Below are positions 1,598 through 60,403 of a stretch of 64,000 bases of DNA, piece after piece. The stretch lies in contig JAUNJL010000005.1 of assembly GCA_030533315.1 (NCBI GenBank), positions 8,570-72,569 on the forward strand. The letters run 5' to 3'. This stretch comes from Eubacteriales bacterium (GTDB lineage Bacteria > Bacillota_A > Clostridia > Lachnospirales > Lachnospiraceae). How positions within the stretch are numbered: position 1 is the first letter of the stretch; each line of letters starts with the position of its first letter. The position numbers were made by a program, and so were the translations under genes. The notes under the pieces were generated by a model, which did not search any database, was not told where the DNA came from, and saw nothing but the letters and a program-made list of their open reading frames with translations.

Positions 1598-2860
1598 ATG
1601 TTGAATTATGATATGGTGATCGTTGGAGGCGGGCCGGCGGGTCTGGCGGCTGCCGCCAGCGCCTATGACGCGGGGGCCCGCAGCATCCTGATTCTGGAGC
1701 GGGATCGGGAGCTGGGAGGGATCCTGAATCAATGCATCCACAATGGCTTCGGCCTGCACACCTTCGGCCAGGAGCTGACCGGGCCGGAGTATGCGCAGCG
1801 GTTTATTGATATGGTACGGGAGCGGGGGATTGAATACAGGCTGGACACCATGGTCCTTAGTCTTAGCCCGGATAAGGTGGTCACCGCCGTGAACCGGAGG
1901 GACGGGCTTTTTGAGATCCAGGCAAAGGCCATTGTCCTGGCCATGGGCTGCCGGGAGAGAAGCCGGGGAGCCCTGAACATTCCAGGCTTCCGTCCGGCGG
2001 GGATCTTTTCCGCAGGGACGGCCCAGCGCTTGGTGAACATGGAGGGCTTTCTGCCTGGACGGGAGGTGGTCATTCTGGGCTCCGGGGACATCGGCCTGAT
2101 CATGGCCCGCCGTATGACTCTGGAGGGAGCCAAGGTCAAGGTGGTGGCAGAGCTGATGCCCTACTCCGGAGGACTGAAGCGGAACATCGTCCAGTGCTTG
2201 GACGATTTTGGCATTCCTCTGAAGCTGAGCCACACGGTGGTGGACATCCAGGGAAAGGAGAGGGTCACCGGAGTGACCATCGCACAGGTGGACGACCGGG
2301 GACGTCCCATGGCCGGAACGGAGGAGCATTATGACTGTGACACCCTGCTTTTGTCCTGCGGCCTGATCCCGGAGAACGAGCTTTCCCGGGAGATGGGAGC
2401 CAGAATCAGCCCCGTGACAAACGGTCCCGTGGTGGATGAGAGCCTGGAGACCTCCATTCCCGGGGTGTTCGCCGCGGGGAACGTGCTCCACGTCCACGAC
2501 CTGGTGGACTTTGTCTCCCAGGAGGCGGCCAGGGCGGGACGGGCCGCTGCCGCCTACGTCCGGGGGGAGGGGGCGAGAGAGGAAAGCCCCATCCAGATCG
2601 CCTTTGAGGGAGGCCCCCGGTACACGGTTCCCACCTTCATCTCCCCCTCCAGGGTGGGGGAGGAGGCCACGGTACGCTTCCGTGTGGGGAGCGTCATGAA
2701 GGACCGGTATATCAATGTTTATTTTGACGATCAGCGGGTGATCCACCGGAAGCGCCCCGTGATGGCGCCCGGTGAGATGGAAGAGGTGAGACTGAAAAGG
2801 TCCATGTTTGAAAACCATCCCGGCCTTTCCGGCATCACCATCAGGGTTGAGGAGGCATAG
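1598..2860 (+). CDS. FAD/NAD(P)-dependent oxidoreductase, partner of the glycerol-3-phosphate dehydrogenase
   Basis: A 420-residue pyridine nucleotide-disulfide oxidoreductase-type protein. The FAD motif GGGPAGLAAAASAYDAGA is at residues 9-26. A second dinucleotide fold begins at VVILGSGDIGLIMARRM (about residue 154) and should bind NAD(P). The C-terminal FAD-contact motif is VFAAGNVLHVHDLVD. There is no redox-active CxxxxC of the thioredoxin reductase type. Proteins of this kind sit directly after GlpA-like dehydrogenases in clostridia and probably pass electrons between the flavin/Fe-S dehydrogenase and a nicotinamide acceptor. The gene ends two bases before the next start, so the two are translationally linked. 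Confidence 0.85.
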   Translation: MLNYDMVIVGGGPAGLAAAASAYDAGARSILILERDRELGGILNQCIHNGFGLHTFGQELTGPEYAQRFIDMVRERGIEYRLDTMVLSLSPDKVVTAVNRRDGLFEIQAKAIVLAMGCRERSRGALNIPGFRPAGIFSAGTAQRLVNMEGFLPGREVVILGSGDIGLIMARRMTLEGAKVKVVAELMPYSGGLKRNIVQCLDDFGIPLKLSHTVVDIQGKERVTGVTIAQVDDRGRPMAGTEEHYDCDTLLLSCGLIPENELSREMGARISPVTNGPVVDESLETSIPGVFAAGNVLHVHDLVDFVSQEAARAGRAAAAYVRGEGAREESPIQIAFEGGPRYTVPTFISPSRVGEEATVRFRVGSVMKDRYINVYFDDQRVIHRKRPVMAPGEMEEVRLKRSMFENHPGLSGITIRVEEA

Positions 2861-2862
2861 AT

Positions 2863-3225
2863 ATGGAAATAAAAAATCTGACCTGTATCGGCTGTCCCAT
2901 GGGCTGCTCCCTGAAGGTGACCATGGGGCTGGAGAACATTTTCGTGGAAGGAAACATCTGTCCCCGGGGGGACGCCTACGCCCGGAAGGAGGTGACCAAT
3001 CCGACCAGGGTGGTCACCTCCACCGTCCGGGTGACGGGGAGCCGCACCGGAGCGGCGGCAGTCCCCTGTAAGACTGCGGGAGACATCCCCAAGGACAGGA
3101 TCTTTGCGGTGATGGAGGACATTGCCGGGGTGTCGGTTTTGGCTCCCGTCCATATAGGAGAGGTGGTCAAGGCCAACGTGGCCGGCACCGGGGTGGACAT
3201 GATAGCCACCAAGGAAATTGTATAA
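2863..3225 (+). CDS. DUF1667 cysteine-motif protein of the glycerol-3-phosphate dehydrogenase operon
   Basis: A 120-residue protein of the DUF1667 family, which occurs almost always beside GlpA-like dehydrogenases. The N-terminus carries CIGCPMGC and, further on, GNICPRGDAYARKE, giving four closely placed cysteines suited to an iron-sulfur cluster or zinc. By position it is the small electron-transfer or assembly subunit of the dehydrogenase complex, a role analogous to GlpC; this is inference. The ATG lies two bases after the previous stop. No obvious terminator follows; the next features are an AT-rich patch and the G-tract promoter. Confidence 0.85.
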   Translation: MEIKNLTCIGCPMGCSLKVTMGLENIFVEGNICPRGDAYARKEVTNPTRVVTSTVRVTGSRTGAAAVPCKTAGDIPKDRIFAVMEDIAGVSVLAPVHIGEVVKANVAGTGVDMIATKEIV

Positions 3226-3258
3226 AGCTTGTATATAGAAGAATCTTTATGAAACATA

Positions 3259-3288
3259 TTGACTATTTGTATGGGGGGGGGGTATTAT
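3259..3288 (+). promoter_or_regulatory. Candidate phase-variable promoter with a G10 tract in the spacer
   Basis: TTGACT (3259-3264) and TATTAT (3283-3288) are separated by 18 bases, of which the last ten (3273-3282) are an uninterrupted run of G. Slipped-strand mispairing in the tract would change the -35/-10 spacing and thus promoter strength. The promoter of the paralogous gene at 10608 has the same design with G11. Box positions are read directly; switching is inferred. Confidence 0.65.
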
Positions 3289-3333
3289 TAAATGAGCATT
3301 TAAAATGGGATATGATCGCTACGGATTTCAGAC

Positions 3334-3400
3334 AGACCGGGTTGGGAACCATGCATCCATCCGGTCTATGGTTCTTTGGGGGGAGGCTACCATAGACCGG
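3334..3400 (+). promoter_or_regulatory. 5' leader with mutually exclusive hairpins
   Basis: Three copies of one 7-base element lie in alternating orientation: AGACCGG (3334-3340), CCGGTCT (3361-3367) and AGACCGG (3394-3400). The middle copy can pair with either neighbour. The downstream pairing extends to a perfect 12-bp hairpin (3361-3372 with 3389-3400, 16-base loop). GAACCAT (3346-3352) can also pair with ATGGTTC (3368-3374). This resembles a leader with alternative folds, but no T-run follows, so any control would act on translation or RNA stability. No known riboswitch signature was recognised. Confidence 0.5.
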
Positions 3401-3450
3401 CACGGCGGTACCGGGGAAGATAGCGTTTGGAGGGACATGGGGAGGAAGGT

Positions 3451-6069
3451 ATGGAAAAGCTACTAAAGGATGAGTTTGGACTAGATAAAAAGCTGAGGCT
3501 TCGGCTGGGCGTGGGATTGGCAGTATTTTTGGGTGCGACGGTCCTGGCCTGCTTTGGCTTGTATTTCAGTACGAGATCGGTGATCGTGAAGCAGGTGACC
3601 AGCAACGTGGCCAACGTCAGTCAGCTGAATGAGGATTCCATCTCCAGGGCCATTGTGAATCGAAAGGTCCTGATGAGGGCGATCGCCGACCGGGTGGTGG
3701 AGAGGAATATTGAGGACGTGGATGCGATCCTTCGGGAGCTGGTGGCCTATGCAGGCTCTTATGGCTTCAGCAACATGGGAATCCTGGACGAAAAGGACCG
3801 GCTTTATACGACGGACAGCAAGGTGTTGGACGCATCGGATTTGACCTTTATTGATGAGGTGCGGTCGGACGATTTTTATATTTCCGAGAGCTACCAGCCC
3901 CTGGACGGCGGCAAGTACATGGTAAACATTTTTTCCTATCCTCTGTACCTGAAAAGCGGGAAGAGGTACCATATTTTGGCCACCTATTATTCCAGGAATC
4001 TGACGGAGCGGATGAACACCACCTCCCTCAGGGGAACGGGCTACACATTCATCATGAACAGCCAGGGGAAGGTGGTGATCTTTCCGCAGGATTATGAGGA
4101 TGAGACCTACAATGACCTGATGAATTTCCTGGACGACGGTCCAGAGATCATCCCCCAGGAAAGCGGGGATGGCTATTTCCAATACAAAGGGGAGCGCTAT
4201 TATGCGCACTTTGAAAAATTGGAGGTCAACGACTGGTACCTGATGACCTGCGCCAGAAGGGCGGACGCCTTTGCAGGCCTGCATGTGATCATTCGAAACG
4301 GCACGGTGGCCATCGTTTTGATGTGGTTCTTCATCCTTTTGGGTATCATTATCATGTTCGGCACCATTTTCCGTACCAACAGGGAGCGGCGAAACTTTGC
4401 CTTTTATGACGGCCTGCTGGGTATCGGCAATGGAAACGCTTTGGCCGTGACCTTCAAAAAGCTGTCCCCCAAGATCCGGAAGGATATGTATCTGGTGATC
4501 TTTGACATTGACCGGTTCAAGGAGTTCAACTATATCTACGGGGAGGAGGCGGGAGACCGGCTCTTGCAGTATATTGTCCAGGTGTTCCGGGAGGATTTTC
4601 CCGAGATTTATCTGTTTCGCTATTTTTCGGACTATTTTATCACCCTGGACAGGTGCCAGGATCAGAAGGTCTTTGAGGGAAAGATCGAACGGCTCATGGA
4701 AAGGTTCAAGGGGGACATCGACCGGGGGGAGGTGCAGCCCTTCGACGTCTCCATGGGCATCCGAAAGATCCAGGAGGGGGAGCCCCTGCAGAGGATCCTC
4801 AGCGATGCGCTGATCGCAAGAGGGGTCGTCAAGGGCAACCATATCCGGCATTATGCCTTCTATGACGATGAGATACGCCATAAGCGGGTCCGGTACATGG
4901 AGATGGAGACCAGCTTTCCCACGGCCCTGCAAAACAATGAGTTTCGGGTGTATTACCAGCCCAAGTACAATATGATCACCGGCGAGATCATAGGTGCGGA
5001 GGCTCTGGCCAGGTGGGTAAAGGACGACGGGACGGTGATCAGCCCCGGGGAGTTCATCCCCTGCTTCGAGCAGAGCCGCCAGGTCATTCTGCTGGATGAG
5101 ACCATTTTAAGGGGCGTGTGCCGCCAGATGCGGGAGATGCAGTCTGAGGGCATCCATGTGAAGCCGGTGTCGGTGAACCTTTCCCGGGTTCACCTGCGCC
5201 ACCCGGACATTCTGTCCAAGATCGAATCCATCGTGAAGGAATCAGGGATCGATCCTACTTTGCTGTCCTTTGAGATCACGGAGAGCGCCCTCTACGAGGA
5301 CAGCATTCCCCTAAAGACGATCGTGACCTACATCCACTCCCTGGGGTGCCAGGTGGATATGGACGACTACGGCGTGGGAGTCTCAGGGCCAAACGCCCTG
5401 GCCTCCAACAGCTTTGACACGGTGAAGCTGGACAAGTCCTTTGTGGATGGCCTGGGGAATGCCAGGATCGAGGACGTGATCCGCTCCACCGCCGCCATGG
5501 CCAAGAAGTGGGACATGAAGGTGATCGCCGAGGGCGTGGAGAATCCGGTGCAGATACGCAGCCTGGTGGGCCTTGGCTGTGTTCTGGGGCAGGGCTTTTA
5601 TTATTCCAGGCCGATGCCTGAGGAGGCCTACCGGACGCTTTTGAGGACGGCGCCCAGGGTTTCCGGCATGGGACTGGAGATTTCGGGCAATGCCAGGTAC
5701 TTTTCCAGGAGTGTCTGCCGCCTTCTGGACAGCAACCGGCTGCCCACCTACATCGTGGATCCGGAGCGGTTCATCGTCAGATACTGCAACGAGGCCATGT
5801 GCAAGGCCCTGGGCACGGATCCCACGGGAGGGCTGTGCTACCGCAGAATGCGGGGCCTGAGCCAGCCCTGCCAAGAATGCTCCGCCATGAGGCTCTACCG
5901 GGACGGAGACGATTCCCCCAAAGAGTTTCTCAGTATGCAGGGCATCTGGGTCATGCTCTATACCTCCTTCGTCCACTGGCAGGGCCGCAGCTCCATCCAG
6001 ATCACCTGCGTGGACATCTCAAAGCAAAAAGCCCTGGAAGAACAGCTGCGCCAGCTTCCCCAAAAATAA
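3451..6069 (+). CDS. Membrane cyclic-di-GMP phosphodiesterase: sensor, degenerate GGDEF, EAL and C-terminal cysteine PAS
   Basis: An 872-residue membrane signalling protein predicted to hydrolyse cyclic-di-GMP. In order: a transmembrane helix (about 20-38), a large extracytoplasmic dCache-like sensor (40-285), a second helix (286-308), a GGDEF fold whose signature is replaced by SDYF near residue 390 (so probably not a cyclase), an intact-looking EAL domain (about 483-730) and a C-terminal PAS domain (750-872). EAL residues seen include GAEALARW, VNLSR, EITES, the double-Asp loop MDDYGVG, VKLDK and AEGVE. The PAS carries CNEAMC, CYRR and PCQEC, matching the N-terminal PAS of the cyclases at 6521 and 13181. 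ATG 3451 is chosen because GGAGGAA lies just upstream; a TTG 24 bases earlier lacks a site. It is a close paralogue of the gene at 10608, which lacks the PAS. Confidence 0.88.
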   Translation: MEKLLKDEFGLDKKLRLRLGVGLAVFLGATVLACFGLYFSTRSVIVKQVTSNVANVSQLNEDSISRAIVNRKVLMRAIADRVVERNIEDVDAILRELVAYAGSYGFSNMGILDEKDRLYTTDSKVLDASDLTFIDEVRSDDFYISESYQPLDGGKYMVNIFSYPLYLKSGKRYHILATYYSRNLTERMNTTSLRGTGYTFIMNSQGKVVIFPQDYEDETYNDLMNFLDDGPEIIPQESGDGYFQYKGERYYAHFEKLEVNDWYLMTCARRADAFAGLHVIIRNGTVAIVLMWFFILLGIIIMFGTIFRTNRERRNFAFYDGLLGIGNGNALAVTFKKLSPKIRKDMYLVIFDIDRFKEFNYIYGEEAGDRLLQYIVQVFREDFPEIYLFRYFSDYFITLDRCQDQKVFEGKIERLMERFKGDIDRGEVQPFDVSMGIRKIQEGEPLQRILSDALIARGVVKGNHIRHYAFYDDEIRHKRVRYMEMETSFPTALQNNEFRVYYQPKYNMITGEIIGAEALARWVKDDGTVISPGEFIPCFEQSRQVILLDETILRGVCRQMREMQSEGIHVKPVSVNLSRVHLRHPDILSKIESIVKESGIDPTLLSFEITESALYEDSIPLKTIVTYIHSLGCQVDMDDYGVGVSGPNALASNSFDTVKLDKSFVDGLGNARIEDVIRSTAAMAKKWDMKVIAEGVENPVQIRSLVGLGCVLGQGFYYSRPMPEEAYRTLLRTAPRVSGMGLEISGNARYFSRSVCRLLDSNRLPTYIVDPERFIVRYCNEAMCKALGTDPTGGLCYRRMRGLSQPCQECSAMRLYRDGDDSPKEFLSMQGIWVMLYTSFVHWQGRSSIQITCVDISKQKALEEQLRQLPQK

Positions 6070-6070
6070 C

Positions 6071-6103
6071 ACGCCCCACACCCTGTGGGGCGTACACTTT
6101 TTT
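6071..6103 (+). terminator. Rho-independent terminator
   Basis: A perfect 10-bp stem (6071-6080 with 6084-6093, 3-base loop) begins just after the stop codon and is followed by ACTTTTTT. It should end the transcript of the EAL gene, so the cyclase at 6521 is probably transcribed on its own. Confidence 0.85.
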
Positions 6104-6153
6104 CAGAGCAAAATCCTCCCAGCCTCATAAGGCTCCTTCCCCCAAAAAACCAG

Positions 6154-6181
6154 TTGACTTTACCTTCCCCATCTGTTATCT
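6154..6181 (+). promoter_or_regulatory. Possible promoter for the cyclase at 6521
   Basis: TTGACT (6154-6159) and TTATCT (6176-6181) are 16 bases apart, just downstream of the previous gene's terminator. The -10 match is moderate. If used, it gives a leader of more than 300 bases that contains a terminator-like hairpin and the G9 tract. Confidence 0.35.
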
Positions 6182-6226
6182 TTGGATTAAAGAAAAACAC
6201 AACAGAACAACAGACAGATCGATCCT

Positions 6227-6263
6227 AGGCATAACTGTAAAAACCTGCAGCTATGCCTTTTTT
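6227..6263 (+). terminator. Terminator-like hairpin in the leader of the cyclase gene
   Basis: AGGCATA (6227-6233) pairs with TATGCCT (6252-6258), with an inner CTG/CAG pairing, followed directly by six T. It lies after the candidate promoter at 6154 and about 260 bases before the start codon, so it may be an attenuator or end a short RNA. A second hairpin follows (GTGAAGC 6265-6271 with GCTTCAC 6287-6293). Confidence 0.55.
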
Positions 6264-6423
6264 CGTGAAGCAAAGCTCCACATCCCGCTTCACGCCAGCT
6301 CTGTTCCCGCACCGTCTTAGGGGCCTGCGGGTACGGAGCCCCCATTTTCACTGATGGAAGCGCCCCCCTGCCCTTCCTGCCCTGTTCGGGGCCCGGGGAA
6401 GGGAGATGCCTGCACCAGTTCTG

Positions 6424-6472
6424 CCCCCGAAAAAAGCCGGGGGGGGGTAATCGCCCAGCTGTCTGGGCGATT
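6424..6472 (+). promoter_or_regulatory. G9 tract flanked by hairpins in the 5' leader
   Basis: A run of nine G (6439-6447) follows CCCCCG (6424-6429), so the run can form the 3' arm of a short hairpin in several registers. A perfect 10-bp hairpin (6449-6458 with 6463-6472, loop CTGT) comes directly after. The start codon of the cyclase is 49 bases further on. No -35 box at a proper distance was found, so the tract looks like a leader element, not a promoter spacer. Confidence 0.5.
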
Positions 6473-6520
6473 GCGTAAAGGACACCTTGAGGCAGGAGCC
6501 CAATGAGAGGAGGGTGCAGT

Positions 6521-9034
6521 ATGGAAAACAGCATGAAAAAGATCACAAAGAAAGAGTATGGTTCCGGCAAGGCGCTGGCAGCAGGAGTCGGAGCGGTTTC
6601 CTTTTTGGCGGGCTCCGCAGTCTACGGAAGCTTCGGTGTCAGGGGAAGCCTGTGGACGCTGGGGGCGGCCGCCCTTCTTGGGGCCGTTTATGCGGCATAT
6701 CACCGCCGGAAACACCCCTGCCAGGTCCCGTCGGATGAGAAAGCCCAAAAGGAATGCCCGGAGGCAGCTCAGGGGGCCGTTCAGGCGGTTTTTGATGGGC
6801 AGGAGGCGTCCCGGGAGGCTGTTCAGATGGCTCCTGATGGGCAGGAGGCGTCCCGGAAAGCGGCTCCGGAGGCCTGTGAGCTTCAGGATGAGGCCCTGGA
6901 GGCAGCCGCCCCCTACGGCGACTGTTTTTCCCAGGACTTTCGCACCGCACTGGATTCCACGGAGATCCCCATCTACATCATCGATCCCGTAAGCTTTGAG
7001 ATGCTTTACTGCAATGAGACACTGCGCCGGTACATGGGCCGGGCGCCTTTGGGGCAGATCTGCTACCAGGTGTTCCAGGGCAGAGGTGAGCCCTGCGTGG
7101 GCTGCCCCGTGGTGAAGCTTTTGCGGGAGGGCGTCAATGAGTCGGTGGAGTACAGGCGTCCAGGCGGCATCTGGGTGCTGGTGAAGGTTTCGCCTCTGGA
7201 CTGGCGGGGAAGGCAGCTTTACAAGGTGACCTGCACGGACATTACCGACCAGAAACGGCTGGAGGAGGAGCTGCGTCTTTACAACAAGGAGTACAGTGCG
7301 GTGGTGTACCAGAGCACCTCGGGCATCCTGCGGTACGACATTGGAACGGGGGAGGCCTCCGTCAACGTGGACAAGAGCCTGTGCCGTATTGCGGAGTATA
7401 CGGTTTCGGATTATGTGAACGCGGCCTGCAAAAGCGGCCTTCTGGACGAGGAAGGAATCCAGGTGGTGAGGACCATGTTCCAGGATATTCACAGCAGCCT
7501 TCCCAGCCGGGGCTATGACGTGCATCTGACCCTTCCCGGAGGAGAGATGCGCTGGTACCATCTGGATTACACCCTTTTGGAGGATCGGGAGGGAAAGCCC
7601 TACCGGGCGGTGGTTTCCTTTTACAATAACACGGAGAAGCGGGAGAAGGAGCTGGCCTACCAGCGGTGGAATGCCAGGCTGAATGCCCTGATGAACGATT
7701 ATACCGCCTACATGGAGGTGAACCTTAGCCAGGATCTCATAGAGGCCGAGGGCCGGTATGGCTCCTGGGCGGAGGAGTCCGGCGGGCGCCCCTACAGCAA
7801 ATCTCTGGAAAGTATGGCCCGCAAGGGGATCTTCGAGGAGGATCAGTCCAGCTTTCGGAAGTTTTTCCATCGGGAGCGGCTGCTGGGCCAGTTCCTTGCC
7901 GGGAAGCGGGAGGGCGTGCTGGAGTACCGCACCTTGATGGAAGGTTCCCTCCAGTGGTATAAGGCGGAGATCCAGATGGTGAGCGATCCCTCCAGCGGAG
8001 ATGTGATGGCGTCCATGATGATCAGCAACGTGGATGAGGACATGAGGGAGCGGGAGCATCTGAGGAACGAGGCGGAGCGGGACGCCATGACCAGGCTTTA
8101 CAACCACGCCGTGGCCGAGACGCTGATCCGCCAGGTGATGGAGCTGAGTACCGGGGAGCGCTGCTGCTTCCTGATCATCGACCTGGACGATCTGCGGGAT
8201 ATCAACAACACCCTGGGCCACCCCGAGGGGGACCGGGCCCTGAAGGCCATTGCGGATTCCATGAAGGCCCAGTTCCGAAAGAGCGACATCATGGGCCGTA
8301 TCGGCGGGGATGAGTTTGTGCTTCTTCTGCGGAACGCCCCCGAGATCGACCGGCTGCGGAGCTCCCTGTCCGCCTTTATGAAGCGTCTGAATGAGATTCG
8401 GATCGGCCCCTTGAACGACTGGCCGGTACATGCCAGCGTGGGAGGGACCATGGGAACGGCGGGGGTGGACGATTTTGAAACCATGTACCACCAGGCGGAT
8501 CTGGCCTTGTATTACACCAAGGCCACGGGGAAGAACGCTTTCCATATGTACGTGCCGGAGATGGAAAAACGAAATTTCAGCTACCAGCCCCGTCCTGCCT
8601 CCGGCCTGGCCAGCCTGGAGTCCTTTGACCCGGGGGAGATGAAACGGCTGCTTACGGCCGTGTCCACCTACTGTCCCATGGTGATCTCCGCCAACCTGAC
8701 AAAAAATACCTATCACATCATGGAGCATCTGGACCACGCATCCCATCGGGCCAGGGATGAGGGAAATTACGATCAGCTGGTGCGGGAGGAATGCAAGTTG
8801 GTTCATCCGGAGGACCGGCAGGGGTTTTTGGAGTGCTTCACAAGGGAAAGCCTTCTGCGGGCCTATGACTCCGGCAAGGGGATCGTTCATTATATGAACC
8901 GTCAGGCGGGGAAGAACGGTATATACCGGAGGATGAAGACCGCAGTGATCTTTATGGAGGATGAAAAAACGGGGGACGTCTGCGACATTTCCTTTACCCA
9001 CGTGATCCTTGCGGAGGAGGACGAGGAAAAATGA
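6521..9034 (+). CDS. PAS-GGDEF diguanylate cyclase with N-terminal membrane hairpin
   Basis: An 837-residue protein predicted to make cyclic-di-GMP. Two hydrophobic stretches (about 14-50) anchor it. An Ala/Gln/Glu-rich linker with a 14-residue repeat follows (about 85-125), then a cysteine PAS (141-255; motifs YCNE, CYQVF, PCVGC), further PAS-like segments (265-510), a GGDEF domain (520-680) with canonical RIGGDEF near 594, and a C-terminal PAS-like segment (690-837). No EAL domain is present. ATG 6521 is preferred because GAGAGGAGGG lies a few bases upstream; an in-frame ATG at 6503 has no such site. It is paralogous to the gene at 13181 and lies downstream of an EAL phosphodiesterase, so each locus pairs synthesis with breakdown. 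Confidence 0.88.
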   Translation: MENSMKKITKKEYGSGKALAAGVGAVSFLAGSAVYGSFGVRGSLWTLGAAALLGAVYAAYHRRKHPCQVPSDEKAQKECPEAAQGAVQAVFDGQEASREAVQMAPDGQEASRKAAPEACELQDEALEAAAPYGDCFSQDFRTALDSTEIPIYIIDPVSFEMLYCNETLRRYMGRAPLGQICYQVFQGRGEPCVGCPVVKLLREGVNESVEYRRPGGIWVLVKVSPLDWRGRQLYKVTCTDITDQKRLEEELRLYNKEYSAVVYQSTSGILRYDIGTGEASVNVDKSLCRIAEYTVSDYVNAACKSGLLDEEGIQVVRTMFQDIHSSLPSRGYDVHLTLPGGEMRWYHLDYTLLEDREGKPYRAVVSFYNNTEKREKELAYQRWNARLNALMNDYTAYMEVNLSQDLIEAEGRYGSWAEESGGRPYSKSLESMARKGIFEEDQSSFRKFFHRERLLGQFLAGKREGVLEYRTLMEGSLQWYKAEIQMVSDPSSGDVMASMMISNVDEDMREREHLRNEAERDAMTRLYNHAVAETLIRQVMELSTGERCCFLIIDLDDLRDINNTLGHPEGDRALKAIADSMKAQFRKSDIMGRIGGDEFVLLLRNAPEIDRLRSSLSAFMKRLNEIRIGPLNDWPVHASVGGTMGTAGVDDFETMYHQADLALYYTKATGKNAFHMYVPEMEKRNFSYQPRPASGLASLESFDPGEMKRLLTAVSTYCPMVISANLTKNTYHIMEHLDHASHRARDEGNYDQLVREECKLVHPEDRQGFLECFTRESLLRAYDSGKGIVHYMNRQAGKNGIYRRMKTAVIFMEDEKTGDVCDISFTHVILAEEDEEK
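6793..6876 (+). repeat. Two-copy 42-bp in-frame repeat in the linker
   Basis: A 22-base segment starting TGATGGGCAGGAGGCG occurs at 6793 and again at 6835, giving two 42-bp units encoding DGQEASREAVQMAP-like and DGQEASRKAAPEA-like sequence. Unequal exchange would change linker length in steps of 14 residues without breaking the frame. Confidence 0.7.
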
Positions 9035-9067
9035 GAAGGAAAGCAGGTGGCAAAGGGCGAGGAACTG

Positions 9068-9076
9068 TGCTATACT
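9068..9076 (+). promoter_or_regulatory. Possible extended -10 element upstream of the ApbE gene
   Basis: TG followed by one base and TATACT (9071-9076) forms an extended -10 about 150 bases before the ApbE start. No convincing -35 was seen. It lies in the 190-base gap after the cyclase gene, in which I found no terminator. Confidence 0.3.
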
Positions 9077-9226
9077 GCTGACAGAAAAATAAGGCCGGAA
9101 GGGCGAGGACAAAGTCTTCTCCGGCCGGCGGCAAGGAGAGATAGAAATGGCAGAAAGATATTTGGCAGTTTTTCATTGGCAGGAGGATCCTGGGGCGAAG
9201 GGCCCGGATCTGGCAGGAGGCATCTT

Positions 9227-10276
9227 ATGAAAAAGGGAGCTTTGTTCCCCGCCTGCGCCCTTTGTCTCTGCCTTCTTTTCCCCGCAGGGTGCGGGAGACC
9301 TGAGCGGGCTGAGGAAAAGAGGACGGGCACCGTCTTTGCCATGGACACGGTCATGGATCTTACCATTTATGGGGAGGAAGAGCTTTTCCATGAGGCCGAG
9401 GAAAAAATACTGGGCCTGGAAAAGCTTTTTTCCGCTACGGACGAGAACAGCGAGGTTTACCGTCTGAATCAGGGGGAGGACCAGCAGGTTTCCTGGGAGA
9501 CCATGGACATTTTGTCCCAGGCCCTGGAGCTTTGCAGGCGCACGGACGGGGCCCTGGATATCTCCATTTATCCCCTGGTGAGGGCCTGGGGCTTTACCAC
9601 CGGGGAGTACCGGGTTCCCTCTGAGGGGGAGCTCCAGGAGCTTCGGGGGCACGTGGGCTATGACAGGATCAGGCTTCGTCCCAAGGAGCGTACCGTCCGC
9701 CTGCCGGAGGGCATGGAGGTGGATCTGGGGGGCGTGGCGAAGGGGTACACCGGCGACGCCCTCATTTCCCTGTTCAGGGAAAGGGGAGTTTCCTCCGCTC
9801 TTTGCAATTTGGGAGGAAACGTCCAGGCACTGGGGAGAAAGCCGGATGGGAGCCGGTGGAGGATCGCCATCAAAAATCCCTTTGGGGAAGGAACGGTGGG
9901 TGTTTTGAAGGTCGATGGCCAGGCGGTGGTCACCTCCGGGGGCTACGAGCGGTACTTTGAGAGAGACGGCAAGGTGTACTGGCACATTCTGGATCCCGTC
10001 ACCGGCCGTCCCGCAGAGAAGGGCCTTGTCTCCGTCACCATCGTATCGGACAGCGGGCTTTTGTGCGACGGCCTGTCCACGGCTCTTTTTGTCATGGGGG
10101 AGGAAAAGGCCATAGATTTCTGGCGGGATTCCCAGGACTTTGAGATGATCCTGGTGGGAGAGGACAGGCACATGGCCGTGACGGAGGGGCTGGAGGAGTT
10201 TTTTACCCTCTCCCAGGACTCGCCCATCTCCAAGGAGGACTATCAGGTGATCGCGCGTGATCCAGACGAAGGGTGA
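9227..10276 (+). CDS. apbE: FAD:protein FMN transferase (ApbE family lipoprotein)
   Basis: A 349-residue ApbE-type enzyme that covalently attaches FMN from FAD to Ser/Thr of target flavoproteins outside the membrane. The start at 9227 has AGGAGG six bases upstream and gives a lipoprotein signal ending PAGC (Cys at about 22). Family motifs include TVFAMDTVMDLTIYG, a DLGGVAKGYTGD segment and GGNVQALGRKPDG, and the conserved TSGGYERYFE followed by HILDPVTGRP. The gene sits between the two phosphodiesterase-cyclase pairs; I see no obvious flavoprotein substrate (Rnf/Nqr or FMN-binding domain) in the window, so the target is probably elsewhere. A longer upstream open frame is not credible as a start. 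Confidence 0.92.
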   Translation: MKKGALFPACALCLCLLFPAGCGRPERAEEKRTGTVFAMDTVMDLTIYGEEELFHEAEEKILGLEKLFSATDENSEVYRLNQGEDQQVSWETMDILSQALELCRRTDGALDISIYPLVRAWGFTTGEYRVPSEGELQELRGHVGYDRIRLRPKERTVRLPEGMEVDLGGVAKGYTGDALISLFRERGVSSALCNLGGNVQALGRKPDGSRWRIAIKNPFGEGTVGVLKVDGQAVVTSGGYERYFERDGKVYWHILDPVTGRPAEKGLVSVTIVSDSGLLCDGLSTALFVMGEEKAIDFWRDSQDFEMILVGEDRHMAVTEGLEEFFTLSQDSPISKEDYQVIARDPDEG

Positions 10277-10346
10277 GCTGGGGATTTTGGGCCTGTGGAC
10301 GGTGACGGCTATGGAATATTGTAGACATAACGAATATAGAATATTG

Positions 10347-10377
10347 TTGACAATCTGCATGGGGGGGGGGGTAAAAT
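10347..10377 (+). promoter_or_regulatory. Candidate phase-variable promoter with a G11 tract in the spacer
   Basis: TTGACA (10347-10352) and TAAAAT (10372-10377) are separated by 19 bases, of which the last eleven (10361-10371) are all G. The sequence before the tract (TTGACAATCTGCAT) matches that of the promoter at 3259 (TTGACTATTTGTAT), so the two are copies of one element that differ in tract length. A 19-base spacer is longer than optimal; loss of one or two G would bring it to 18 or 17. The 230-base leader that follows holds a small imperfect hairpin near 10421-10455 and no gene. Confidence 0.68.
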
Positions 10378-10607
10378 TAGACTGAATTTTTGGTCGGATT
10401 TTACAGAAGACGGAGCTGCTGGCCGCAGGACGGCCATGGGAGGCAGCCGCAGACATCTTTCGTTTCCGGCGTGAGGATATGTGGCGCTCGAAGGACGTTG
10501 GCCCGATCGATCTTGCATGGAATGACCCTTTTTATCCGCAGGGGTACGGAATGTTTGGATGTTGTTTTATGTGATAAGGATGGAAAGACAAAGGAGAAAG
10601 GATATTT

Positions 10608-12851
10608 ATGGAAAAGGCGATCAGGGGCGAGTTTGTGATGAGCAAAACGCAGAGAAGGCTGTGGCTGCTGGGACTGACCGTGTTTTTGGGCTTGTCTGTT
10701 TTTATTTATTTCAAATTGTATGCCAACGTCATGGACATTGTGAGAAGCCAGGCGGTAAACAGCATTACCAATATCAGCGAGCTGAATGAGGATTCCCTCT
10801 CCCGTTCCATCCGCAACAGGGAGCTGCTTATAGAGATGATCTCCTACCGGCTGTCAAAGAGAGAGGTGGAGGACGTGGACATTATCCTCCGGGAGCTTCA
10901 GGATTTCGTCGGTTATTATGAGTTTTACAACATGGGCGTCATGGATGTGGATAAAACCTTGTACCTGACCGACGGGAGGGTCCTGGATGTGGCGGGGGTG
11001 CCTCTTTATGAGGATGCCTGGAGCGAGGAGTTCCACCTGTCGCCCAGCTACATCCCCAAGGACGGGGACGGGTACGCCCTCAACGTGTTCTCCTATCCGA
11101 TCTACCTGGACGGGGAGGTGAGGTACGTTCTGACCGCCACCTACCGCTCCAGCAACCTGACGGAGCGGATGAACATCAACTCCATGGGAGGGAAGGGCTA
11201 CAATTTTATCCTGAACTGCCAGGGGGAGGTGGTCATTTATCCCCGGCATTATGAGAACCATGATTACAACAGCCTGATGGAGTACATCAACGACATATCG
11301 GGGATCATTCCCGATGACAGCGGGGACAGGTTCTTTACATACGATGGGGATCCCTACTACGCTCATTTTGAGCGCCTGGGGATCAACAACTGGTTTTTGA
11401 TGACCTGCGCCAGGGAGGCCGACGTGTTTGCGGATGCAAACGCCATCAGCCGGAACGTGATGACGGGGATGGGGCTTTTGTGGATGATGGTGCTGGCGGC
11501 CATATTGGCGGCGATCCTCTCCCTGATCCAGTCCAAGAGCCAGCTGCGAAAGGCGGTGTTTTATGATGAGCTGCTGAACGTGGGAAATGGAAACCTTCTG
11601 CCGGTGTTCTTCAAAAGCCTGCCCAGGGACGTGATGTCCAGGATGACGCTGACCATCTTTGATATTGATAAGTTCAAGGAATTTAATTATATATACGGGG
11701 AAGAGTGCGGGGACAACCTGCTGAAATACATTGTCCGGGCCTTTCAGGAGGAGCTTCCGGGGGAGCATCTGTTCCGCTACCTGGCCGATCACTTCGTGGC
11801 TTTGATCCAGTGCAGCGGCAGGGAGGAGTTCAAGACCAAGATGGATCGTTTCCTGCACCGATGTGAGGAGGACATCGGCAATGGAAAGATCCAGCCCTTC
11901 GACATCTCGGCGGGGGTCCGGCGGGTGAGGGAGGGGGATTCCTTCCGCAGGGTGGTCAGCGACGCTCTGGTGGCCAAGGGGACCGTCAAGGGGATCCAGC
12001 TGCAGCAGTATGCCTTCTACGAGGAGGCGGTGCTTCAGAAGCGTATGCACTACATGGAGATGGAGTCGGATTTTTCCAGGGCACTGAAGGCCCACGAGTT
12101 TCAAGTGTTCTACCAGCCCAAGTATGATATGATCACGGGCAGGATCATCGGTGCGGAGGCGCTGGTGCGCTGGGTGAAGGCCGACGGCTCCGTCATCTCC
12201 CCGGGGGCCTTTATCCCCTGCTTTGAGGCCAGCCGCCAGATCATCCTGATGGATGAGGCCATGCTGGAGGCGGTCTGCAGCCAGATGAACGAGATGAAGG
12301 CGGATGGGCTTCCGGTGAAGAGGGTGTCCGTCAACCTTTCCCGGGTTCACCTAAGGCATCATGGCATTTTGCCCAAGATCGAGAGGATCGTGAAAAGCTC
12401 CGGGGTTGATGCGGACAAGCTGTCCTTTGAGATCACGGAGAGCGCCCTTTATGAGGACAGCATCCCTCTGAAGCACATTGTGGATTTTCTCCACCAGCTG
12501 GGCTGCCAGGTGGATATGGACGATTACGGCATCGGGGTGTCCGGTCCCAGTGCGCTGGCGGCCAACCGGTTTGACGTCCTGAAGATGGACAAGTCCTTCA
12601 TCGACGGTATCGGGGATCCCAGAATGGAGGCGGTGATCAAGTCCACCATCACTCTTACCAAGACGCTGGGAATGGAGGTCCTGGCGGAGGGTGTGGAGGA
12701 AAAGCACCAGGCGGACTGTCTGGCGGAGTGGGGCTGCACCCAGGCCCAGGGCTTTTATTATTCCAGGCCGGTTCCCCAGGAGGAGTACCGAAGGCTTCTG
12801 ATGGCGGAGAGCCGCAGGGATCAGCGGAGGGCCCCAGGGGATAGGCCATAG
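10608..12851 (+). CDS. Membrane cyclic-di-GMP phosphodiesterase: sensor, degenerate GGDEF and EAL
   Basis: A 747-residue paralogue of the protein at 3451 without the C-terminal PAS. It has a transmembrane helix (about 17-35), an extracytoplasmic dCache-like sensor (36-280), a second helix (about 285-305), a GGDEF fold with the signature changed to ADHF near residue 394, and an EAL domain (about 480-735). EAL features are GAEALVRW, VNLSR, EITES, MDDYGIG, LKMDK and AEGVE, so hydrolytic activity is likely while cyclase activity is not. The ATG is preceded by AAGGAGAAAGG. It has its own G-tract promoter 230 bases upstream and a cyclase paralogue downstream. Confidence 0.88.
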   Translation: MEKAIRGEFVMSKTQRRLWLLGLTVFLGLSVFIYFKLYANVMDIVRSQAVNSITNISELNEDSLSRSIRNRELLIEMISYRLSKREVEDVDIILRELQDFVGYYEFYNMGVMDVDKTLYLTDGRVLDVAGVPLYEDAWSEEFHLSPSYIPKDGDGYALNVFSYPIYLDGEVRYVLTATYRSSNLTERMNINSMGGKGYNFILNCQGEVVIYPRHYENHDYNSLMEYINDISGIIPDDSGDRFFTYDGDPYYAHFERLGINNWFLMTCAREADVFADANAISRNVMTGMGLLWMMVLAAILAAILSLIQSKSQLRKAVFYDELLNVGNGNLLPVFFKSLPRDVMSRMTLTIFDIDKFKEFNYIYGEECGDNLLKYIVRAFQEELPGEHLFRYLADHFVALIQCSGREEFKTKMDRFLHRCEEDIGNGKIQPFDISAGVRRVREGDSFRRVVSDALVAKGTVKGIQLQQYAFYEEAVLQKRMHYMEMESDFSRALKAHEFQVFYQPKYDMITGRIIGAEALVRWVKADGSVISPGAFIPCFEASRQIILMDEAMLEAVCSQMNEMKADGLPVKRVSVNLSRVHLRHHGILPKIERIVKSSGVDADKLSFEITESALYEDSIPLKHIVDFLHQLGCQVDMDDYGIGVSGPSALAANRFDVLKMDKSFIDGIGDPRMEAVIKSTITLTKTLGMEVLAEGVEEKHQADCLAEWGCTQAQGFYYSRPVPQEEYRRLLMAESRRDQRRAPGDRP

Positions 12852-12932
12852 GGATCAAAGGGCGAAATGTGGACCGCAAAGGAGCGCTGATTGAGAAGTG
12901 GAGCAGTTTTGTAAAATATTTCCCCAACGGCC

Positions 12933-12961
12933 TTGACAATGGGGCCGTCATCCCTTACCAT
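12933..12961 (+). promoter_or_regulatory. Promoter upstream of the second PAS-GGDEF cyclase
   Basis: TTGACA (12933-12938) and TACCAT (12956-12961) are 17 bases apart. The -35 lies inside a small inverted repeat (ACGGCC and GGCCGT). Transcription would start near 12968, some 210 bases before the cyclase ATG, and would first meet the terminator-like hairpin at 13010. Confidence 0.55.
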
Positions 12962-13009
12962 GAGTAGGAATACAGAAGCACACATCGAAATAGAATGACG
13001 GAAAAGAAA

Positions 13010-13038
13010 GGCACCCGGGACGTGAAGGGTGTCTTTTT
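13010..13038 (+). terminator. Terminator-like hairpin between promoter and cyclase gene
   Basis: GGCACCC (13010-13016) pairs with GGGTGTC (13027-13033), with one G-U pair, and five T follow. A-rich sequence on the 5' side could pair with the T-run. It may end the transcript of the EAL gene (stop at 12851), attenuate the promoter at 12933, or both. Confidence 0.6.
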
Positions 13039-13047
13039 CCAGTCGTT

Positions 13048-13150
13048 CCGGCAGGCATACATGCCTGCATAGACACACGCCGACTGCCGGGAGGATTACC
13101 CCCCCCCGCAGTTTACAGGCCCGCCGCCCGGACAGGACGCTTGTCCGGGC
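13048..13150 (+). promoter_or_regulatory. C9 tract and alternative hairpins in the cyclase leader
   Basis: A run of nine C spans 13099-13107. CCGGCAG (13048-13054) can pair with CTGCCGG (13084-13090), while the overlapping GCAGGCAT (13051-13058) pairs with ATGCCTGC (13061-13068), so the two folds exclude each other. Downstream a 9-bp hairpin (13126-13134 with 13142-13150) lies just before the ribosome binding site. On the minus strand the tract reads G9 followed by TAATC, like the tract at 6439. Confidence 0.45.
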
Positions 13151-13180
13151 CATGTGGGGATACTTTAGGAGGGGATCCTT

Positions 13181-15609: not shown

Positions 15610-18030
15610 ATGAGTTCGCAGAAAAAGCACAAGAGAAATAAAACTAAATTGTTTAGCACCGGCAATGTTTTTGTTGCCGTTTTTCTGGGGATTGCCCTGC
15701 TGATCGGGACCGTCCTCATGGCGGGGAACATCAGGACCAACATACGGGCCACCTCCTACGAAAGCCTGCGCAGCGTTTCCGCTGAGAGTGCAAAGTCTGT
15801 CACCGGGATCCTGCAGAGCCGGATCGGTTATCTGAGAAGTCTTTGGATCCAGCTGAGGGATACCCCGCCGGATATGAGGGAAAAGGTGCTCCTCCAGCAC
15901 CAGGAGAGGAGCAGCATTTACGGCTTCGACTGGATCGGCTGTGCGGATGCCTCCGGAAGGGACTTCAAAAGCAACGGAGAAGTGGCAAACATCAAAAAGG
16001 GCAGCCTGTTCCAGAGCAGTATGCAGGGCAACATCGGCATCGCCCTGCGTCCGGTGCTCCATCCAGACGGGGAGAAACGGGACGGTATCATCCTGAGCAT
16101 CCCCATTTATGCGGATGGGCCGGATCCGGTGGGCTGCCTTTACCAGTCCTTTTCCCCGGAGAATTTCTCCAATCTTCTGGAGGTGGGCGCCTTCAACGGA
16201 AATGCCTATGTGACCCTTTTGGGGCCGGACGGGATGGTCCTGGCGGCCACGGCGAAGCATGTCCTGAACGTGGGAGAGAACGTTCTGGAGCGTCTCGGAG
16301 AGAAGGAGGAGAATCGGGAATATGCGGATTCTCTGGAGCATTCCATCCGCACCATGAAGGGCGGGGAGGGATTTTTCCGGATGAAGGGCTCCAGCTGGTG
16401 CTGCTACTACACCCCCATTACCCTGGAGTGCGGAGAGGCGACCATGAATCTGGGAGTCTTAAGCGTGGTGCCGGGAAGCTTCGTGTCCCAGCAGACCGGC
16501 CGCACCTTCCGCCTGGTGCTTTATCTGGCGGGCATGGTGGCGGCCACCATCCTGATGCTGGGGATCTGGCTGTACCGGTCCCTGCGCCAGAACAAGAAGG
16601 AGCTGGAGAGGCTGGCTTACCGGGACATCCTTACCGGCCAGGATAATTATGAGGCCTTCAAGCGGGATTTTGAGTATCTGAAGGACGAGACCGGTATTTT
16701 TCTGATCTGCGATCTGGTGGATTTCAAGCTGATCAACCGTTATTTCGGCTCCGACAAGGGGGATCTGGTGCTCCAGGAGATGGGAAGGCTTTTTGTGGGG
16801 ATGAGAGGCAGCGACAATCTGACGGCCCGGGTTTCGGACGACCAGTTCGTGTTCTTTTTCTCCAGCATGAAGATGAACGAGGCCCCGGAGAAGTGCCGGG
16901 AGCTCCAGGGGCAGGTGCTGTCCCTTCTCCGCCACCTGAAGGTGCGGATCAGCAGCCCCGTCTTTGGCTATTGTCTGGTGAAGGGCAACAAGCCCATCGA
17001 GTGGTACCGCAGCAGGGTGATGTTTGCCAAGAATCTGGCCAAGCAGAGAGGAAAGCTTTACTGGGCCTATGACGAGGAGACGGCCGCCGAGCTGACGGAG
17101 ACGGACCAGCTTTTGAATACCTTTGAGCAGGCCATCCGGGAGGAGCGGCTGGAGGTTTGGTATCAGCCCAAATACCTGGTGAGAGAGAAGAGGATCGGCG
17201 GTGCGGAGGCCCTTGTCCGCTGGAGGGGCGAGGATGGAGAGCTGATCTCCCCGGCAAGGTTTATCAGCCTGTTGGAGGAGTATGGAAAGATCGCCGCTTT
17301 GGATGAATATGTTTTCACCAAGGTCTGCAAAATGCAGAAGGTGTGGAGGGATGCGGGGCTTGACCCGGTTCAGGTGTCGGTGAACCTTTCCCGCAGCAGC
17401 CTGGTGGATGCGTCTCTTCCCGAAAAATACCGAAAGATCGTGGAGGACACCTGTGGGGACCAAAGCCTGATCTCCCTGGAGATCACGGAGGACTCCGTGC
17501 AGAAGGACGTGATGGACGTGATCCGGGCCTTTCGGGAGCAGGGCTTCTTCCTTCTGATGGACGATTTCGGAAAGGGAAGCTCCAATTTGGCAAACCTCCG
17601 CAAGGATCTTTTCTCCGGCGTCAAGCTGGATAAGAGCCTGGTGGAGCTGGTGGGAACGGGAGACGAGGGCCTGCTTTCCGGTTCCATGCAGATGATCCAT
17701 TCCCTGGGGATGTGGATCACCGCCGAGGGCGTGGAACGGCAGGAGGAGGTCAGCTTCCTGGAGGAAACCTACTGCGACGACATCCAGGGCTACTTCTACT
17801 ACCGTCCCATGGAGGACTACTCCTTTGCAGGTCTTCTGAAGGAAGCCGTCTCTTTTTATGGGGGGGGCAGAAGCCAGGGCATTTTAGGAGCGTCCATGGG
17901 AAGCCGCAGGAGCCTGCCGTCCGGTGACGATATGGGAGGCCGGCGGGAGGAAGGGGGTTCCGCGAACAGACGGGGCCCCTTCCCGTCCGGTGACGGGATC
18001 GGGAGCCGCAGAGTCAGAGTCCTTTTGTAA
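15610..18030 (+). CDS. Membrane EAL phosphodiesterase with degenerate GGDEF and slippage-prone C-terminal tail
   Basis: An 806-residue protein. One transmembrane helix (about 20-43), an extracytoplasmic sensor (45-298), a second helix (300-322), a degenerate GGDEF fold (335-490; SDDQF in place of GGDEF near 409), and an EAL domain (500-745) with GGAEALVRW, VNLSR, EITED, MDDFGKG, VKLDK and AEGVE. It should degrade cyclic-di-GMP. A ~55-residue Gly/Arg/Ser-rich tail follows the EAL domain and begins at a G8 run (17860-17867). The tail contains a 13-base direct repeat (17917 and 17983), giving two PSGDxxGxRR-like units. Start ATG 15610 follows TAGGGGG. It ends before a bidirectional terminator shared with the opposing kinase gene. 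Confidence 0.85.
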   Translation: MSSQKKHKRNKTKLFSTGNVFVAVFLGIALLIGTVLMAGNIRTNIRATSYESLRSVSAESAKSVTGILQSRIGYLRSLWIQLRDTPPDMREKVLLQHQERSSIYGFDWIGCADASGRDFKSNGEVANIKKGSLFQSSMQGNIGIALRPVLHPDGEKRDGIILSIPIYADGPDPVGCLYQSFSPENFSNLLEVGAFNGNAYVTLLGPDGMVLAATAKHVLNVGENVLERLGEKEENREYADSLEHSIRTMKGGEGFFRMKGSSWCCYYTPITLECGEATMNLGVLSVVPGSFVSQQTGRTFRLVLYLAGMVAATILMLGIWLYRSLRQNKKELERLAYRDILTGQDNYEAFKRDFEYLKDETGIFLICDLVDFKLINRYFGSDKGDLVLQEMGRLFVGMRGSDNLTARVSDDQFVFFFSSMKMNEAPEKCRELQGQVLSLLRHLKVRISSPVFGYCLVKGNKPIEWYRSRVMFAKNLAKQRGKLYWAYDEETAAELTETDQLLNTFEQAIREERLEVWYQPKYLVREKRIGGAEALVRWRGEDGELISPARFISLLEEYGKIAALDEYVFTKVCKMQKVWRDAGLDPVQVSVNLSRSSLVDASLPEKYRKIVEDTCGDQSLISLEITEDSVQKDVMDVIRAFREQGFFLLMDDFGKGSSNLANLRKDLFSGVKLDKSLVELVGTGDEGLLSGSMQMIHSLGMWITAEGVERQEEVSFLEETYCDDIQGYFYYRPMEDYSFAGLLKEAVSFYGGGRSQGILGASMGSRRSLPSGDDMGGRREEGGSANRRGPFPSGDGIGSRRVRVLL
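17860..17867 (+). repeat. Coding G8 tract at the end of the EAL domain
   Basis: Eight G follow TTTTTAT and encode Tyr-Gly-Gly-Gly. By my translation, loss of one G gives a stop about ten residues later (ending in ARAF), and gain of one G gives a different 24-residue tail ending at 17927. The current eight-G state reads through to the long tail ending at 18030. Confidence 0.75.
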
Positions 18031-20535: not shown

Positions 20536-20931
20536 ACGGGGCCTTGTGACGTCAGTTTCGCCGGAAGCTTTTTTGCAGGTTAGACAAGGCTTCCCCCTTT
20601 GCCCTTTCTTTTTTCGCAGGGTGCTCTTCTTCTCCGGAAGGGAACATACCGGGCAGGGAATTTTGCAGAATCGGATGAAAGGACAGCTCCGTCAGGCCTT
20701 TTGGGGTCTGGCGGAGCTGTTTCTCAGGGGTCGGCGCAGCTGGGAAAATAGTGTGGGATGGGCTGATTTTCCTTGGATTTTCCGGTAAAATCCGTAGACA
20801 AATGGGTGAAATTGTGGTAGTTTATGTGTAGTATTTTCTATCTTGACAGATTATTGAGACAGACGGGGGCGAGAGGCTTCTGAGTACATGCTGCGACGCC
20901 TGAGGGTGTGGCGGCGGCAGGGGGGAAGACA
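20536..20931. other. Intergenic stretch without a recognised gene
   Basis: About 400 bases between the aldolase and the GGDEF gene. It holds the terminator at 20683-20723 and a TTGACA at 20843-20848 with no good -10 at 17 bases. No coding frame with a credible start was found. Confidence 0.6.
20683..20723 (+). terminator. Probable terminator downstream of the aldolase
   Basis: ACAGCTCCG (20683-20691) pairs with CGGAGCTGT (20712-20720), extended inward by imperfect pairing, and a short T-rich tract follows. Confidence 0.6.
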
Positions 20932-56136: not shown

Positions 56137-56145
56137 GGGGGGGGG
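56137..56145 (+). repeat. G9 tract in the 5' leader
   Basis: Nine G follow TCTCCT in the leader, 49-57 bases before the start codon. C-rich sequence just upstream (GCCCGG near 56123) can pair with the run in several registers inside a larger hairpin closed by GGCAGAC and GTCTGTGCC. Slippage would alter the fold, not the promoter. Confidence 0.6.
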
Positions 56146-56193
56146 CGGAGTCTGTGCCGTGTGGCACGACTATGGGGAACAGGGGAAATTGCA

Positions 56194-60330: not shown

Positions 60331-60403
60331 CCATTGATCAAAATACGGAAATTTGCTGGAAAGACGCGGGAAACATGTCGCAGCAGAGAAGAAAGGACAG
60401 CAG

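Follow-up and report, generated by a model that had tools for sequence, protein, structure and literature searches.

Poly-G tracts at predicted cyclic-di-GMP genes: a candidate slippable promoter spacer in a 64-kb stretch of bacterial DNA

In the meningococcus, the transcript level of PorA tracks the number of G's in the promoter spacer (PMC3899988). A 2025 review (PMC11868660) further describes phase variation of phosphodiesterases by DNA inversion, as in pdcB and pdcC, and, in Escherichia coli, by an epigenetic switch, and another study reports that c-di-GMP is lowered by a locked-ON pdcB (PMC9286219). A term search of the review's main text returned neither Lachnospiraceae, nor Firmicutes, nor spacer. 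Among the matches listed from the open-licence literature, we found no paper in which a c-di-GMP enzyme is switched through a homopolymer and none on poly-G promoters in the Lachnospiraceae.

The locus described here lies in a 64-kb window, by which we mean the whole stretch of DNA that was analyzed, and would combine spacer slippage with phase variation of phosphodiesterases, both of them already known; we offer this combination as a well-supported prediction. We consider it probable that a G10 tract in the window is a slippable spacer in the sigma-70-type promoter of a predicted c-di-GMP phosphodiesterase gene, causing heritable and random switching between high and low expression, with a similar promoter on a paralog possibly switching independently.

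Two poly-G promoters and the genes downstream

An earlier note on this DNA had described a TTGACT box and a TATTAT box separated by an 18-nt spacer, in which ten G's abut the second box, and this description proved exact at 3259-3288, the spacer consisting of ATTTGTAT followed by G10 (Table 1). The ATG of gene 1 is located 162 nt downstream of the -10 box. In a second promoter in the window, the 8 nt ATCTGCAT stand between the -35 box and G11, and gene 2 starts 230 nt further downstream. Both loci contain one of the features expected of a homopolymer promoter-spacer contingency locus, namely a homopolymer of about eight or more between boxes at a usable distance (G10 in 18 nt and G11 in 19 nt). 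The second promoter, the tracts at four other c-di-GMP genes and the use of the design elsewhere had been omitted from the earlier note.

Judging from its sequence, the product of gene 1 is likely to be active as a phosphodiesterase. Pfam matches were obtained to EAL (1.3e-60), GGDEF (1.1e-12) and dCache_1 (7.6e-12), and the EAL domain scored 205 bits compared with a curated cut-off of 31.3, which places it within the family. The residues E517, N576, E608, D638, D639, K659, E694 and Q714 (gene 1 numbering) were invariant in 10/10 aligned members, and we take these eight to be the metal-binding and catalytic set. The GGDEF signature of the protein is degenerate (FRYFSDYFIT), and MucR, DosP and RocR are among its relatives of solved structure.

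Table 1. Positions of the poly-G promoters, G/C tracts and c-di-GMP genes in the window
Feature	Position	Strand	Details	Basis
-35 box, promoter 1	3259..3264	+	TTGACT, 5/6 match to TTGACA	direct reading
G10 tract, promoter 1	3273..3282	+	3' part of 18-nt spacer	direct reading
-10 box, promoter 1	3283..3288	+	TATTAT, abutting the tract	direct reading
Gene 1	3451..6069	+	dCache-GGDEF(degenerate)-EAL, 872 aa, predicted c-di-GMP phosphodiesterase	Pfam, alignment
G9 tract	6439..6447	+	56 nt upstream of first ATG of PAS-GGDEF gene 6503-9034; no promoter box assigned	
PAS-GGDEF gene	6503-9034		first ATG at 6503	
Promoter 2	10347..10377	+	TTGACA, ATCTGCAT, G11 (10361-10371), TAAAAT; spacer 19	direct reading
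Gene 2	10608..12851	+	dCache-GGDEF-EAL, 747 aa, gene 1 paralog	53% identity; dCache_1 below Pfam cut-off
C9 tract (G9 on opposite strand)	13099..13107	+	74 nt upstream of PAS-GGDEF gene 13181-15379	
PAS-GGDEF gene	13181-15379			
Gene 3	15610-18030		dCache-GGDEF-EAL; EAL domain at residues 504-733	
G8 tract	17860..17867	+	within gene 3, codons 751-753, past the EAL domain	
GGDEF gene	20908-22302		no tract of 8+	
dCache-GGDEF-EAL gene	22501-24882	minus	no tract of 8+	
G9 tract	56137..56145	+	16 nt upstream of first possible start GTG 56161, GGDEF-PAS-EAL gene	
GGDEF-PAS-EAL gene	56161-60330		first possible start GTG 56161	

Another explanation is that promoter 1 is switched by DNA inversion, as is pdcB in Clostridioides difficile, and that the G tract is incidental. 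A similar target gene in a related class is on record (PMC9286219). However, the two inverted pairs identified in the segment 2950-3500 (2988-3021 and 3361-3400) do not bracket 3259-3288, and promoter 2 is associated with a single weak pair of 14 nt (86%), one arm of which lies within the tract itself. Bracketing inverted repeats are the hallmark of an invertible promoter of the pdcB type, and we have therefore rejected this candidate and give it almost no credence.

The pair at 3361-3400 is a perfect 12-nt inverted repeat in the leader of gene 1, with a 16-nt loop that contains GGGGGGAGG. The folding of this leader (166 nt) gave no extra stability (z 0.28), and an Rfam scan of the window yielded zero matches at the gathering cut-off; two sub-threshold matches fall within 3200-13300, both distant from the poly-G promoters. 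The DUF1667 gene upstream of promoter 1 has its end at 3225, and the interval from there to the promoter contains no listed terminator-like site, so that read-through could mask a switch at promoter 1. Among the best 120 of 7865 matches of the upstream oxidoreductase, identity to other proteins reaches 73% at most, and the two organism names given are Faecousia.

The window contains eight GGDEF/EAL genes, identified by scanning 44 ORFs with Pfam and by searching all six frames. There are six G or C runs with a length of at least eight, each at a different one of these genes (6/8), with five located at most 260 nt upstream of the start and one inside gene 3. The promoter of the earlier note is one case of this wider pattern. 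A length change in the G8 of gene 3 (17860-17867) would affect only the C-terminal tail. The GGDEF-PAS-EAL gene is followed by a CheB-CheR-PAS gene both in the window (56161-62986) and at L084 (C136) in the related MAG G001; the tract upstream of the former gene has nine G's in the window and ten in L084, where an additional G8 is found within the CheB-CheR gene.

Some of these features are expected by chance. Promoter-like hexamers are near their chance level in the region 2800-6600 (4 vs 2.3 +/- 1.4 in shuffles), G8 words are not in excess (14 overlapping matches vs 18.1 expected), and promoter 1 is by itself only moderately unusual. It could thus be argued that promoter 1 is an ordinary promoter whose tract, either inherited or tolerated against a G-rich background, stays constant in practice. 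The window contains 31% G, G or C runs at least ten long arise 1.64 times per shuffle on average, and a single length is on record at the locus itself, which is represented by one contig. We regard this alternative as unlikely, because all runs of nine or more (5/5) are located within 260 nt upstream of GGDEF/EAL genes, in zones that represent 3.25% of the window. In these same zones, runs of length six are mildly enriched (4/23). The distribution of run lengths in the window includes 23 runs of six, none of seven, one of eight and five of nine or more. The placement of the tracts is non-random: with distance limits that were picked after seeing the data, the probability of at least five of the six tracts falling in upstream zones is 2e-7 under uniform placement. 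Furthermore, a -35 box with at most one mismatch, a spacer of 15-20 nt that includes at least G8, and a -10 box, a combination whose criteria were fixed after the sites were known, occurs twice in the window, compared with at least one site in 6/300 dinucleotide shuffles and two sites in 0/300.

The promoter design in related genomes

The EAL protein family is small, with 41 matches at 1e-50 among the 7991 candidates scored, including the window protein itself on a contig of 72,569 bp; the organism name given for its members is Eubacteriales. Family members are represented by 14 distinct genes or gene pieces listed in the MAG G001 and by 5 in the MAG G002. Tracts of G8 to G10 were identified upstream of EAL genes at three places in G001 (C111, C128 and C159) and at one in G002 (C113), and -35 and -10 boxes fit three of these four, C159 being ambiguous in that a box pair without a tract stands upstream of its tract. 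In G001, C138 is a GGDEF-PAS-EAL gene with a tract in a promoter spacer 545 nt before the start and another at 40 nt. Counted strictly, there are three promoter-type sites in G001 and one in G002, all of which precede EAL or GGDEF-PAS-EAL genes. A long tract was absent from the other EAL homologs of the two MAGs, the closest homolog in G001 having merely GGGG before its -10 box, and the 23 genus mates of G001 yielded no site of the poly-G promoter design.

Tracts of eight or more at any location number 25 in G001 (distinct, after merging), including 8 upstream of 7 GGDEF/EAL genes, one of which (C1) falls inside a longer possible reading frame. G002 has 11 such tracts, 4 of them upstream of 3 GGDEF/EAL genes and two of these as C runs on the gene strand. 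Elsewhere in the two MAGs, a C12 run is located in the leader of a prepilin-like gene in G002 (L098 2712-2723, C59), the frame of which is broken at the assembled length, and in G001 the gene for a PAS - histidine kinase - receiver protein, a further signaling gene with a long tract, has a C9 run in its coding sequence (L088 3409-3417, C164). Two G runs in G001 are placed inside the coding sequences of adjacent genes (L100 6281-6288 and 4149-4157, C13), and by eye one of these genes resembles the C-terminal end of a hexapeptide-repeat acetyltransferase. On inspection, many long G runs in G001, in promoters or not, are followed by TA.

The flanks of six promoters were compared, and 28/30 comparisons were inside the shuffled range, the exceptions being the upstream flanks of the two window promoters and the downstream flanks of C128 and C111. 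Since the flanks are mostly unalignable, the core has either persisted, or arisen repeatedly, amid changing surroundings, which also speaks against a fixed tract.

A broader survey was made with the pattern TTGACW-N(2-12)-G8-N(0-5)-TANNNT, using the reversed pattern as a control. In the family of G001, which is probably the Lachnospiraceae because a protein encoded by a genus mate of the family member G418 has its named matches in Lachnospiraceae, Kineothrix and Blautia, the pattern was found in 49/397 genomes and the control in 1, giving 74 distinct sites after overlaps were merged. The corresponding numbers are 3/87 genomes in the family of G002 (control 1) and 21/77 in the genus of G418 (control 0). 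At the 71 sites examined outside G001, the tract is 8 to 11 long and is abutted by the -10 box in 61.

These sites bear on the alternative that tract length is read otherwise than by box spacing, through binding of a protein to G-rich DNA, G-quadruplex formation or transcriptional slippage. Other GGDEF genes do have tracts that are not part of a promoter spacer but lie in the leader or only a few bases ahead of the start codon, and spacing can therefore not be the sole mode of tract action. Yet in 60 of the 71 sites the boxes are 16-20 nt apart around the tract, a register that such readings do not require, and we find them very unlikely as an account of the G10 tract.

The poly-G promoter type is common in parts of G001's family, mostly before secreted-looking genes. 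As classified by a crude signal-peptide script, 44/67 of the first downstream genes are secreted-looking vs 41/122 of the later genes in the same stretches. Four of the 71 sites are excluded from these gene counts, one being without a gene and three having first ORFs of 86, 83 and 58 aa, and the first genes were picked mechanically, with those at L160, L166, L167 and L179 probably not being true targets. Among the 25 of 62 Pfam families listed for the 67 first genes are Big_2 (Ig-like; 9), LRR_5 (6), ABC_tran (4), Choline_bind_3 (4), SBP_bac_1 (3) and GGDEF (1), and a phmmer search of the surveyed first genes with the window EAL domain gave zero matches. Clear sites are associated with c-di-GMP genes in 6/6 cases in the window and the two MAGs vs 1/67 in the family survey, as compared by a Fisher test that was designed after the pattern was noticed and from which the ambiguous C159 site was left out. 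We do not claim that 19 is the best spacer length for poly-G promoters: among 89 sites, 19 is the most frequent value and 16 forms a second peak, and the control lacking a tract comprises only 10 sites. Near-identical poly-G promoters (TTGACAAAAGCTGT-W-G10-TAGAAT) occur at two places in the genome G078 (L160 and L162), which suggests duplicated promoter cassettes.

Tract length and the proposed switch

Differences in tract length were observed in assemblies from the loci of other species. In the genus of G418, a sugar ABC permease gene is preceded by the promoter TTGACAGAAGGCA-Gn-TAAAGT, which occurs four times, spread over three genomes, with n = 10, 10, 11 and 10. The orthologous promoter regions L214 and L215 (3027 bp, 92.5% identity) show a sole indel, G11 vs G10 in the tract, although L215 contains N's and an assembly slip is possible. 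For homologous pairs elsewhere in the family, tract length is unequal in 7/13, or in 5/8 groups when related pairs are merged, which argues against an invariant tract, with homopolymer assembly errors being possible. The proposal of the earlier note that a slippable spacer drives a predicted c-di-GMP phosphodiesterase gene thereby finds comparative support in the second copy, the two MAGs, the family and the G11/G10 indel, and is a prediction for its own locus.

Promoters are sensitive to single-base changes in spacer length. According to the slippable-spacer hypothesis, replication slippage would add or remove a G in the G10 tract, and the changed G count would shift the spacer onto or off a length that is well used by RNA polymerase. 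Cells would then switch randomly and heritably between high and low enzyme expression, c-di-GMP would fall when gene 1 is ON, and promoter 2 on the paralog gene 2 could switch independently. Slippage in clones of the window organism, its effect on transcription and the fall in c-di-GMP are what we infer for this locus. The effect may be a change in level rather than an ON/OFF switch, since spacers of 18 and 19 are both near usable lengths. The suggestion that a whole second-messenger state would be switched, also made in the earlier note, is probably too strong: with eight GGDEF/EAL genes in the window and 29 GGDEF matches in G001, a single switch more likely contributes one input among many.

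Tracts in leaders or near start codons (C1, C95 and C136 in G001; 6439 and 56137 in the window) cannot work via spacer length, and may act on translation. We tentatively suggest, as a possibility of which we are less than convinced, that the whole c-di-GMP network functions as a contingency system in this lineage. Its cyclases and phosphodiesterases would then, in many cases, have their own slippable G/C tract, in a promoter spacer, a leader, a start-codon region or a coding sequence, and a clone would continually sample combinations of enzymes. The origin of such a system might be the poly-G promoter type that is used elsewhere in the family, mostly on surface proteins.

Comparison with known systems

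Interest in phase-variable c-di-GMP phosphodiesterases is recent. If the prediction is correct, homopolymer slippage would join inversion and epigenetics as a third source of random and heritable diversity in a global messenger, and it could be read from the G counts in ordinary sequencing reads. Recurrent poly-G promoter spacers in a family of the Clostridia may also matter more widely, and their tract lengths could be surveyed in existing isolates and reads.

As in porA of Neisseria meningitidis, a G run is placed between the -35 and -10 boxes, whereas the target here is a predicted c-di-GMP enzyme in a Clostridia-like host, there are several copies, and the effect on transcription is a proposed one. 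The proposed link between phosphodiesterase expression and a reversible DNA change at the promoter is shared with PdcB and PdcC of C. difficile, but their promoters invert by site-specific recombination, whereas those in the window are without bracketing inverted repeats. A phosphodiesterase gene in the sfa fimbrial operon of E. coli is likewise phase-variable (PMC11868660), although through an epigenetic switch rather than a repeat tract as in the window. Finally, the many poly-G/C tracts per genome, in promoters as well as in coding sequences, resemble the G/C-tract contingency loci of Campylobacter and Helicobacter, with the difference that surface structures are stressed in published abstracts on those loci, whereas the targets in the window are signaling enzymes.
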